64,000 nt of DNA from NCBI RefSeq assembly GCF_035582795.1, contig NC_134370.1, forward strand, positions 38,179,501-38,243,500, given 5' to 3'. The translations under genes were made by a program, and so were the position numbers. Shown in pieces: positions 16,423 to 25,700 of the stretch; the stretch's first letter is position 1, and each line of letters starts with the position of its first letter. The notes under the pieces are model-generated. The model did no database searches. It saw only the letters and a program-made list of their open reading frames with translations, and was not told the DNA's origin. The DNA comes from Mycteria americana (lineage: Eukaryota; Chordata; Aves; Ciconiiformes; Ciconiidae).

Positions 16423-16749
16423 TCATAACTCAGTGATCTCCAGCGGGCTCTCCATGATCACCTCACGCATCTTGTGCAGGGGGGTGGACTTGGCCGACTC
16501 GGTGCGGGCATTGTGGTCGCTGTAGCTCCCACAGTCGGCGGTCAGAGTCTCCAGCGAGCGACCCAGCACCTTCTGGTCATCCTCCGGCAGGCTGTTGAGG
16601 TCGGAGGCAAGCAGAGTGCCTGTGCTGCCATGTACCACGTGGATGCCGTCGGGACCTTTCAGCTCCACCGGCTGCTTGTGTCGGAAGCGGAGGCTGCCCT
16701 GGCTGGGGCTGCGCTCCTCCTCCTCCTCCTCCAGCTCCTTCTGGATCAG
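16423..16749 (-). CDS. CDH23: CDH23 terminal exon: tail with C-terminal PDZ ligand
   Basis: The acceptor cttttgcag precedes [17 protein letters not shown], then [37 protein letters not shown] and [15 protein letters not shown], followed by TGA at 16423-16425. ITEL is the class I PDZ ligand bound by harmonin. Reading frame upstream of 16749 is intron. Confidence 0.96.
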   Translation of the reverse strand: MIQKELEEEEEERSPSQGSLRFRHKQPVELKGPDGIHVVHGSTGTLLASDLNSLPEDDQKVLGRSLETLTADCGSYSDHNARTESAKSTPLHKMREVIMESPLEITEL

Positions 16750-19700: not shown

Positions 19701-22700
19701 GGGAAAGGACATCGCCCCACCTATGAGCAGCAGCCGTGTCCAGCTGCAGCTGGGCTGTTACCTGCAGAGCTGAGAGGTCGTCCGGGGCCCGGGCCGTGAT
19801 GGCGGGCTGCACATCCAGCACATTGTAGTTCCTGAAGAGGTTCCTCAGCTGCTCCTTGTTCTCGTCTATCATCTGAATCACCCTGGGAAGAGAAGGGTTG
19901 CTTGGGTATCTTGATGCTAATGAGGATCCCAGAGGACTCAGTGGGCCAGGCTGGGTGATGGGCCAGGTGACGTACCGCTCCACGTCCAGGATGCGGTTGG
20001 TCTCCCTGTTCACCACGTGGATCAGCAGCTCTGTCTGCGCGAAGTTCACCCTACCTTTCTTGTCAACATGGAACTGGAGAGAGACAGCAAGGTCTGCAGT
20101 GCGGGAGAGGTGTCTCCTCCCGGGGCACCTCCTGAGCATGCCCCGAGGTGTGCTTGTGTGGCAAGAGACCCTCAAGCCTGGCATAGGGTTGGTCTGGACC
20201 CCTTTGATACACCCCAGCCTGGGGTATATCTGTCACCTTCAGAGCTCAGGGGTGTCCATGGTTTATACAGACAGGGCACCCTCAAAGGAGACCTCCCAAG
20301 CAGCATGTGGAAGGTTACCTACCCCTCGAAGCAACCTCAAAGGTGGATGGTTACCTGCACATCATCTGTGTTGACGATGGCGCCCGTGATGTTGGAGAGC
20401 AGGCTGATGAACTCCTCCTCGAACTGCCTGACTTTGTCGGGGATCTCGTTGATGATGATTTTGACCCGCTGGTCATCCCGCAGGATGTAAATCCCCACAA
20501 TGGCCGTGTCGTTGTGGCCCACCAGGTCAGAGGCCATGATGTCCACCACGAAGTAGCCGGGGTTGTAGGCCGTGAAGAGGTCGAAGGTTCGCAGGATCCC
20601 ATCAAGGGTTCCTGGGGGAAGGATGGTCACAAGCCCAGGATTTGTGACCCTAGCCATGGGGACATCTTTGGCCACAGGGATGTCTCTGGCCATGGTCCTG
20701 TGCTCCCACGGCATGCAGGGTACGCACCGATGCTGAAGATGTTGGCCACCTCCTCAGAGTCGTTGGAGTGCTGCTTGATGTAGCGGATGCCCAAGATGTT
20801 GTACAGGACCAGGCTGTTATTGCCCACATCGGCATCCACTGCGACCACTCTGATCAGCTCCGACCCCACCTTGGCGTCGGTGGCAACCCCTTTGAGAGAG
20901 AGATGGGACAAGGACCTGGGGCCGGGCTAGCTCTCCCTGCCCCTTCATCCGGTTAGATTTTCCCCGGAGCATCTCTGGCTCCTGGTGCCTCCCCAGCCCC
21001 CATCACCCCTTACCTGCCGTGTACTCTGACTTAGTGAACTGGGGGGACTGGTCATTGATGTCGTCCAGGAAGATCCGCACCTCCTGAAGGGTCAGGTCCT
21101 TGCTGAGGTCCCAGGGCTGAGCTCTGCCTGTCTGCTGGCCCCGAGGAGGGGACCAGTTCCTCTGGCTGGACGCTTTGACGATGATGGAGTAGTATGGATC
21201 CTTCTCCCGGTCCAGGTCTCGCAAGACCTGCAGCTTCCCCTCTCGGCTCAGCTGGAAGTTGCTCTCCTGGTTCCCAGCTGGATGCAGAAAGGGGGCCCCA
21301 GTTAGTCCTCTTCAGACTCGGCATTTCTGAAACACCACCTCGCCCATTGACCAGGGCAGAAAGGCAGCGAGGAGATGATGGGAATGATGGAAACCTTTGG
21401 CGAGGGGTGTGCAGGGGGCTGCAGAGCTGCCCATCCTCTCCCTGCTCCACACCCACCTGCTATGAAGTAGTAGACGATGGCGTTGGAGCCCTCATCCGCG
21501 TCCACTGCCCCGGTGACATTCCCCACCACGGTGCCCGGCCGCGAGTGCTCGGGGACGGACAGCGCCTGGTACTGGGGACTATCCCTCTGCCAGAGATCCC
21601 AGGAGAAGGGAGGGTCATGAGCATTGGGGTGGCTTTAAATAAAAGTGGACAAATCCCATCGTGCTCCCCACCATGGTGATGCCCAGCAGTGCATGTTCCA
21701 TCAGACGTGCTCGCCGGCATCCCCACCCCTGCATCCCCTGTGACCCATCCCCTCCATCCCGGTGCCTTACGGGTGGCCTGAGGAAGACGGGCTCATTGTC
21801 ATCGATGTCATCGAGTGCAACCTGGAGGGGCTGCATGGTCTCATAGGCTGGCTGGCCCTGGTCACAGGCCACGATGATCAGCTGGGGAGAGAGGCAAAAG
21901 GGCCATCCTGGGCAAAGCCACGCGGGCCAGGAGACACCACTGAGGCAGGGACAGACAGGACAGCTGGGTGGTGGAGGATTTTTGGGGCATTTAACAGGGA
22001 ATTGGGAGTTGGCCCACAAGGATGCAACTCCCCGATGGCACTTGATAACCACCCAGTTCCTGCTAAGGTGTGACATCTTCACGACTGTGGCAGCTGACCC
22101 CATCCCCACCACATCGCTTGCATCCCACCAGCCCCACAACAGACCCGCAGCCTCGAGGACTGTCCCGGCCACCCTGCGGGTGTGCTGCTGCCTGGCTCAC
22201 GTTGTACACCGCCTGCTTCTCCCGGTCCAGCCGCTTGGCCGTCTGGATCAGCCCGCTGACCGAGTCGATGCTGAAATACTCCCAGTCTTTGTTCCCTGCC
22301 CCGGTTTTCAGCAGGTTGTAGAGCACCGCTCCGTTGAGGCCCTCATCTTTGTCCGTGGCGTAGACCTCGTAGACGTTGGACCGCAAGGGGATCTCCTGCT
22401 TGCACATGCGTAGCCCCTCAGCCCCAGCATTGCATGTGAGTCCCCTGCTGCCCCTGCCCCTCCAAACCCCCTTGTATTGGGGTCAGCAGGCTCCTGCTGC
22501 CCAAAACCCAACTGGGGGCTGGCAATGTGGAGCCATGATTCCCTTCAGCAGGGTGGCTGCTCCATGCTCACGCCAGGGACTGGCTGAGACAAGCCTGGCT
22601 TCCCAGAAAGGAGAAACATCTTAAATGTCAGCATTTTGGCCCTTGTTTATAAACAGGCTCAGCACGCAGCGCCCGTCTGTTTCCCTATTTTACATGCTGC

Positions 22701-25700
22701 CAGGGTTTCTGTTCCCCAAAGTTGCCCCAGCATCCCCTCTCGCACGTACGGAGAGGGGCTGTTGTTGATTGTCCAGCCCCAGGTCACAAACCTTCTTGCC
22801 ATGTGTTAAATCAAGGTCTTGTTCCATCCCCGGTGGAGATGGAGATTGGATTTTGCCACCGGTAGGCAGGAGTGCTCCTGGGCATGGTCTTGGCATGCCA
22901 TGACCCCCTCTCCCTGTCAGGGGATTTACCTCCTTGATGTGCAGGATGGTGCCATTGGGTGGGCGGACGAAGACGGGGCGGTTGTCATTGATGTCGATGA
23001 CCTCGATGTGGAGCATGGTGGTCCCCCAGAGAGGGGGACGCCCCTTGTCCGTGGCCACCACAGTCAGGTTGAACCTCTCGTAGGACTGCAAGCGCCACCG
23101 GGACATGACAAGCCCGGAGTCTTTATTGATCTTGAAAGCCTCTGGGGGAAGAAAAAACACATCTCTGGCTCAGGACACTTTGCACCAGACAAATTATGAT
23201 TAGAAACCAGTATACCAGATGAAGCGCACTCCTCACTGGTGGGAAATCCCTGCCAAGGGGTGATGGAGCAGAGCTGGCTGCCTGAGGCGAGGGGTGTGGA
23301 CAGTCTCAGGGTTTTTAGAGCATCCCTGACCACTGCTGCATCCCTGCCACTGGGCAGTGCCAAGGGCCCTGCTCCCAGGCCACCCCTGGCTGCGTTTCAC
23401 TCCCTCCCAGTCTGGGTCAGAGGAGCCCATGGATCTCAGGAAAAGGACTGTTCTGCCATTCCCCTCTACATTTATGCTGGCTTTTGCCTGGTTCCTATCA
23501 CTCCTCTGTGCAGAGATATACTGGATTTCAGGCACTATCACTGTCCATCCACAACTTCCCAGCCCTTCTTAGCTTTCCTCTAAAGTGCGCAGTGAGTTTG
23601 CTCCAAGACACACTTGTGTACATAGAAAGCCCTGCTGGGGTGGAGGAGACAAGAAGATAAGCCAAGGCTGGGCTGCAGGATGGAGGCAGGCAAAGCCATA
23701 ACATGCCACGCCATGAGGAACTGGGAACTGTGGAGCAATACCAAAAGCTCCATGCTTTCACTATTACTCCCAGTGAGTGCACAACCTTGCTCCAAACCAG
23801 CCACAGGATATGGGATGTAGGCTTGGCCCCTACGTCTCCTCCAATTGCTCCTCATCATAACCATCCTCCCCGGGGTGGAGCCCCCCACCTCCAGCACCTA
23901 CCCGCTCCGGGGCCCTCGATGCTGTAGGTCACCACACCATTATCCCCTTCGTCCAGGTCGGTGGCGGTCATGGTGATCACTGATGTCCCCGCTGGCTCGT
24001 TCTCATAGACGCTGGTGCTGAACTGGCTCTTGCTGAACTGGGGCCTGAAGTCATTGATGTCCAGGACTGTGATCAGCACCTTCACAGAATCACAGAATCG
24101 TATAGGTTGGAAAAGACCTTTAAGATCATCGAGTCCAACTGTAAACCTAACACTACCAAGACCACCACTACACCATGTCCCTAAGCACCTCATCCAAACG
24201 TCTTTTAAATACCTCCAGGGATGGTGACTCAACCACCTCCCTGGGCAGCCTGTTCCAATGCTTGATAACCCTTTCAGTGAAGTAAAATTTCCTAATATCC
24301 AGTCTAAACCTCCCCTGGCGCAACTTGAGGCCATTTCCTCTCGTCCTATCACTTGTTACCTGGGAGAAGAGACCGACCCCCACCTCGCTACAACCTCCTT
24401 TCAGGTAGCTGTAGAGAGCAATAAGGTCTCCCCTCAGCCTCCTTTTCTCCAGGCTAAACAATCCCAGTTCCCTCAGCCACTCCTCATAAGACTTCTGCTC
24501 CAGACCCTTCACCAGCTTCATTGCCCTTCTCTGCACACGCTCCAGTACCTCCATGTCCCTCTTGTAGTGGGGGGCCCAAAACTGAACACAGGATTCGAGG
24601 TGCGGCCTCGCCAGTGCCCAGTACAGGGGCACAATCACTTCCCTAGTCCTGCTGGCCACGCTATTTTTGATACAAGCCAGGGTGCCATTGGCCTTCTTGG
24701 CCGCCTGGGCACACTGCTGGCTCATAGTCAGGCGGCTGTCAACAAACACCCCCAGGTCCTTCTCTGCCAGGCAGCTTTCCAGCCACTCTTCCCCAAGCCT
24801 GTAGCGTTGCATGGGGTTGCTGTGACCCAAATGCAGGACCTTGCACTTGGCCTTGTTAAACCCCATACAATTGACAAAGCACAGCCAGCTGGGTGACGTG
24901 AGGCTGGAAACGGCCGGGCAGCCCCTGGGGGCTGTATCCCTGCTGTGACCTGTGGCTCTGCTACAGGAGCACGGTGCCCTTCCTGCTATTCGTTTAGCTC
25001 CGCTAGCTGAATTCCTGCCCCCGACAATGGGGGCCACCGCAGCCAGGGCACCCATTCATGCCAGAGCACTTGCAGACAATAACACCGTCCTCGCCTGCCC
25101 CTCCTGCTCTGTCTCCTCCTGCTGACGTGCCGTCCCCATGGCACAAAGCCCCTGCACTGTCCATCCCACGGCCTCTGGGGTCATCTGCTCTTCCTTCTGC
25201 CTAATTCCTCCCCAGAGCCACCAGCAAGCCTGCTGGGGGGGAAAGCCTGAGGTTTAACACCTTCTTGCCAGGGACCACCACACAAGGGGTGGTGGTAGGA
25301 GGAGAGCCCTACCTGCACAGAGTTCTCCCGACGGTTACTGGAGATGTCCCCAGGGTTATCCCTGGCCACGGCTGTCAGTGTGTAGTGATCCTTCTTCTCC
25401 CGGTCCAGGGCTGACAGGATGTAGATGTCACCCTGCAGCACACAGAGACCTTCAGGTGGATCTCGTCTGGCAGAGCTGGTACTCGAGAAGGGGTAGAAGG
25501 TGAGGTGCGGGAGCAAGGCACAAGGTGGGACCATCTCAGCCTCCCCTCCTTTTTCCCCTCTGTTCCGGCCTTGGTTGGCTCCTTACCGTGTTGGGATTTA
25601 TCCCAAACTTGCCCTCTCCATCCCCCAGGCTGTACTGGATGAGAGCAAAACGCCCAGAATCTGCATCCGTGGCCTTGACCCTCAGGATGACCGTACCCAA

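Follow-up and report, generated by a model that had tools for sequence, protein, structure and literature searches.

A CR1 element adjoining the acceptor of a CDH23 intron in Mycteria americana

A splice acceptor usually has a branch site and a pyrimidine tract before its AG. What happens when a retroelement is found in their place? This question is raised by the CDH23 gene of Mycteria americana, in which a CR1 LINE occupies the end of an intron, practically up to the exon. The locus lies in a stretch of 64,000 nt (the window: contig NC_134370.1, positions 38,179,501 to 38,243,500), and coordinates below are positions in this window. All features described are on the minus strand. Short of an assembly error, the position and the kind of the element are secure. 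The question is whether its tail works as an acceptor, or whether the exon is lost from the messenger.

The CR1 element and the exons around it

The intron holding the element (24080..25312) lies between two CDH23 exons. The upstream exon (25313..25432) has 120 nt, its last residues are NSVQ and its donor is CAG|gtaggg. The exon after CR1 (23902..24079) has 178 nt, it is entered in phase 0 and left in phase 1. Read directly on the minus strand, the AG is at 24081-24080 and the exon begins with GTGCTGATC at 24079. When both exons are joined at the junction Q|V, the resulting 99-residue peptide aligns without gaps to mouse Cdh23 (chain 5uz8_A, residues 169-266). Because of this gap-free collinearity, only the AG at 24081-24080 leaves the CDH23 protein unchanged. 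The initial annotation took the exon to be the one coding for the EC23-EC24 linker. The linker motif (24038-24055) is indeed present, but it lies a few codons in, not at the start of the exon. This motif is DINDF here and DVNDC in mouse Cdh23. The usual linker form is DxNDN, both variants are without the final N.

The element is a 5'-truncated CR1 LINE in sense orientation, with a length of 792–794 nt (24082..24875). Toward the exon, the order is cttttccaacctatacg, ATTCTGTG, ATTCTGTG, A, AG. Two CR1 3' octamers (24098-24083), recognized both by direct reading and by comparison of copies, are thus followed by an A at 24082, the AG and the exon, just as had been noted when the sequence was first read. 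A search of the genome with the last 339 nt (24062-24400) gave 40 scored matches from 2865 first-look candidates. One of them is the locus itself, the 39 others are 97–99% identical, and all of these start at query positions 18-29, which correspond to 24079-24090 in the window. Searching with the upstream part gave 8065 candidates, and the 39 copies scored besides the locus itself stop at query positions 474-476, which places the 5' end of the element at 24873-24875. Among the 39 sibling copies, the 3' flanks are dissimilar and the 5' ends fall at several points. Many of them run beyond 24873-24875, so the CDH23 copy is truncated. Within the 64-kb window, no second match of the CR1 sequence was found.

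The last 44 nt are the commonest form of the CR1 tail, found in 25 of 67 aligned sequences, including the CDH23 copy. The next commonest form, with one base different, appears in 22, and another 11 have forms beyond those listed. Since the tail is identical to the commonest form, it gives no sign of adaptation to splicing. No target site duplication adjoining both junctions was seen by eye, and a short one would escape the repeat search, which had a minimum length of 12; GTGCT occurs near both junctions, but not at them. In CR1 LINEs such duplications are usually absent or imprecise. A Pfam scan with 115 residues of the CR1 open frame, a piece which presumably resembles the end of CR1 ORF2, gave no families at E up to 10.

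The insertion point can be placed by comparing tails. In 41 of the 42 distinct tails from loci picked by their 5' part, the base after the last octamer is A. The A at 24082 therefore belongs to CR1, and the insertion lies just before the AG. This bears out the first estimate, within one or two nt of the acceptor: CR1 ends 2 nt from the exon, and acceptor positions -3 to about -796 are CR1 sequence. AAG follows the octamers in 3 of the same 42 tails, a proportion close to chance for flanks after the A, so that the acceptor AG (24080..24081) would most simply be host sequence rather than made by CR1, although this is not certain. Among loci picked by tail similarity, AAG is found in 8 of 36 distinct tails.

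Strength of the present acceptor and a putative displaced site

Acceptors were scored with two matrices: one consists of general, approximate splice weights, the other is a small matrix built from exons in the window, with leave-one-out scoring. There are 28 modelled acceptors, or 25 after dropping the unreliable models 21266, 26597 and 21083. With the general matrix the present acceptor scores -2.69, the fourth lowest of 28 and the second lowest of 25; with the in-window matrix it is the seventh lowest of 28. Out of 2573 intronic decoy AGs, 724 score as high or higher with the general matrix, and 12% score as high with the in-window matrix. The site has an A at -3 and interrupted pyrimidines. 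It stands alone in this among the 28 modelled acceptors, as all the others have C or T at -3, a comparison biased by the penalty on A at this position used in choosing the models.

Among the 25 acceptors, the native acceptor 22395 scores just below the present one with the general matrix. A pyrimidine tract is all but absent from its sequence, acgcatgtgcaagcag|GAG, and the protein junction matches mouse Cdh23. As this native site is similarly weak yet supported by homology, weak acceptors do occur in CDH23.

Branch site candidates in the tail, scored with general weights, are GTGAT at -11, CCAAC at -28, TTAAA at -41, CTTAA at -42 and ATGAT at -47. All of them are mediocre, and GTGAT is probably too near the acceptor. 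The initial annotation had proposed that the LINE supplies both the tract and the probable branch site. CR1 does fill both positions, but the acceptor is weak, its tract is broken, and CCAAC is just one candidate among those listed.

A possible original site is found on the other side of the element. The sequence directly 5' of CR1 is CTCACgtcacccagctggctgtgctttgt(c), which gives a fair tract when joined to AG|GTG. The candidate tract gctggctgtgcttt(gtc) is at 24873..24889, and the candidate branch site CTCAC at 24898..24902, with its A at 24899. Joining the flanks through 24873 plus AG would put CTCAC at -29, where it is the best branch motif among the positions scanned. Support from the matrices is mixed. 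Five cut points for the joined flanks score 2.55, 3.06, 0.06, -2.19 and -0.61 with the general matrix, against -2.69 for the present site. The in-window matrix, too small for this purpose, gives 0.27 against 0.92 for the present site, which goes against displacement. It is possible that CTCAC and this tract are the old splice site, pushed away by CR1; in that case the old branch A would now be 820 nt from the exon.

Other splice routes, state of the gene and age of the insertion

With both matrices, the best-scoring AG of the intron is inside CR1. This site, ctcttctcccag|GTAACA (24354..24379), would have its first exon base at 24359. It scores 7.9 with the general matrix and 8.54 with the in-window matrix, against -2.69 and -0.15 for the present acceptor. 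Among the 67 aligned sequences, 58 retain its AG|GT. The site is also donor-like: with general weights GTAACA scores 3.6, second in the intron after the real donor (4.7). Use of 24359 is predicted to add 280 nt and to reach a stop after 63 CR1 codons. Skipping of exon 24079-23902, with the next exon (22930..23141) as partner, is predicted to shift the frame and also leads to a stop. We have considered seven alternative acceptors (24359, 24408, 24314, 24851, 24819, 25229 and 25232) as sites which could keep the protein unchanged, and all seven were rejected, as they give stops. The AG at 24337 is in frame with an open stretch. It would insert 86 CR1 residues, and its score is -13.3 with the in-window matrix.

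The rest of the gene appears to be open where it has been read. Exons 23141-21672 match mouse Cdh23, and two pieces near 20.9–20.3 kb, joined by hand, align without gaps to mouse chain 8tri_A over 139 residues. Further open CDH23-like pieces are seen by eye downstream, including at least two exons absent from the first gene model, which has a phase mismatch at 21083. One open piece ends near 16426, which we take to be the C-terminus of CDH23. These downstream pieces are mild evidence that the gene may be alive: they were read separately and not as one full frame, and the exon search favoured open frames and could hardly detect breaks. A second, uninterrupted copy of CDH23 was also considered and rejected. 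In the 1.35 Gb assembly, exon 24079-23902 has one match, and the only match of the non-CR1 part of the intron (24880-25312) is itself.

The age of the insertion was estimated by comparing the CR1 copy with 95 other loci, 11 long ones being flagged as repeats of sequence already included. These loci are the nearest ones retrieved and represent a minor fraction of the CR1 family. There are no wholly private bases in the CDH23 copy; six of its 794 bases (0.76%) are near-private, common to just one other copy, which is different each time. The closest copy over more than 700 nt has 30 differences in 792 positions, and every copy compared over this length differs by at least 3.8%. In a FastTree phylogeny the CDH23 tip is 2.6% long (rank 48 of 60), a value usable only as an upper bound, since differences are shared among copies in conflicting patterns. 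At a neutral rate close to 2 per billion sites and year, 0.76% to 2.6% would give an age of roughly 4 to 13 million years, a weak dating; mutations made at insertion would lower it. The six near-private bases point to an insertion that is not entirely new and may be some million years old, with a wide error.

Known insertions and competing readings

The CDH23 insertion is a further case of a kind already described in dogs and humans, as the following comparisons show for the portions of the papers used here. In canine merle a SINE lies at the boundary between intron 10 and exon 11 of PMEL17, and with shorter tails the original acceptor is still spliced normally (PMC7349775). As in CDH23, a retroelement is found at an intron-exon boundary and the original acceptor is kept; the branch site is moved and an internal cryptic acceptor competes, as may also be the case in CDH23. 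On the other hand, merle has a reverse SINE with poly(T), a 15 bp target duplication and a known phenotype, while CDH23 has a sense CR1 with an octamer tail and no duplication seen (PMC7349775). In Tibetan Spaniels and Terriers, a SINE is found 15–16 nt before an acceptor of FAM161A and separates it from the putative branch site by more than 300 bp (PMC3976383). This is also a sensory gene with a putatively displaced branch site, in which skipping shifts the frame, but FAM161A is a disease allele with RNA proof (PMC3976383), whereas the CDH23 element is a LINE, 2 nt from the exon. In NF1, four Alu insertions in three 3' splice sites cause exon skipping (PMC3219598). The element lies within the AG or the pyrimidine tract of the splice site, as in CDH23, but these insertions were found in patients, and the CDH23 allele in an assembled genome (PMC3219598).

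A recent expansion of CR1 has been described in several bird orders (PMC8665684). The CDH23 copy resembles the recently active avian families in its 5' truncation, its octamer 3' end and its many similar copies (PMC8665684, PMC4316615). In the portions used here, these studies deal with copy number, families and phylogeny, unlike the splice-site case presented here; the word "exon" is absent from the main text of PMC8665684 in the portion used. In titles and beginnings of abstracts of the open-licence papers found, the CDH23 CR1 insertion is named nowhere.

Our preferred reading, with a probability of about 0.58, is that a fairly young sense CR1 landed before the AG and displaced the old branch site and tract, and that the exon is still spliced by means of the CR1 tail and the host AG, perhaps with some leakiness. 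The sense CR1 would have come in directly before the AG and shifted the former branch site and tract upstream by about 790 nt. U2 and U2AF would then use an ordinary CR1 tail, with the branch at CCAAC (-28) or at TTAAA/CTTAA near -41. The tract gtcttttcc and the T/C runs of the octamers would act together with the host AG, and some transcripts might leak to the CR1-internal acceptor or skip the exon. As judged from sequence, it is likely that the CR1 tail took over the acceptor function. The balance leans to continued use of the acceptor because CDH23 appears to be open and its allele with CR1 belongs to an assembled genome, and the normal splicing of merle insertions with short tails supports it. 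The skipping or cryptic splicing found with longer merle tails, in FAM161A and in NF1 makes a damaging or segregating CDH23 allele a real possibility.

In the case of such a damaging allele, which we find less probable but by no means negligible, splicing would go mainly to 24359 or skip the exon, CDH23 would be reduced or lost, and the allele might be segregating or have risen recently in this population. The CR1-internal site outscores every AG of the intron with both matrices, skipping shifts the frame, the element has few private bases, and the three known systems, in the portions used, present skipping or element-internal acceptors. Nevertheless, the CDH23 pieces examined are open, even if the search favoured open frames, and the near-private 0.76% suggests an age beyond usual polymorphism, with a wide error. 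Loss of CDH23 should also deafen the bird. A two-step removal of the intron, in which the upstream exon joins AG|GTAACA, regenerates a donor and then joins the true exon, would fit the strong acceptor-like and the donor-like scores of this site (3.6 against 4.7 for the real donor) and its conservation. We consider it very improbable: the weak tail acceptor would still be needed for the last step, GTAACA is imperfect as a donor, and the site is inside the CR1 open frame, which may account for its conservation. Equally slight is the chance that sense CR1s carry AG|GTAACA as a portable, ratchet-like site, whose two-step use softens the damage done by a CR1 landing on a 3' splice site. Assemblies can misplace high-copy repeats, and the real CDH23 could lack CR1 if there is an assembly artefact or a wrongly joined haplotype. 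We give this little credit, as the intron flank and the exon have a single match each and lie in order in one gene, and the CR1 copy, at least 3.8% different from all copies compared over more than 700 nt, is no misplaced duplicate of those.

In the portions of the literature used here, insertions a few bases from an acceptor are for the most part alleles behind a disease or a trait. Sense CR1s, with the conserved acceptor that they contain, are a possible source of exonisation in birds and may cause mis-splicing where CR1 is active. An insertion of this kind in a hearing gene of an assembled genome is either a natural test of the minimal sequence of an acceptor, or a hearing-loss allele carried by this bird.
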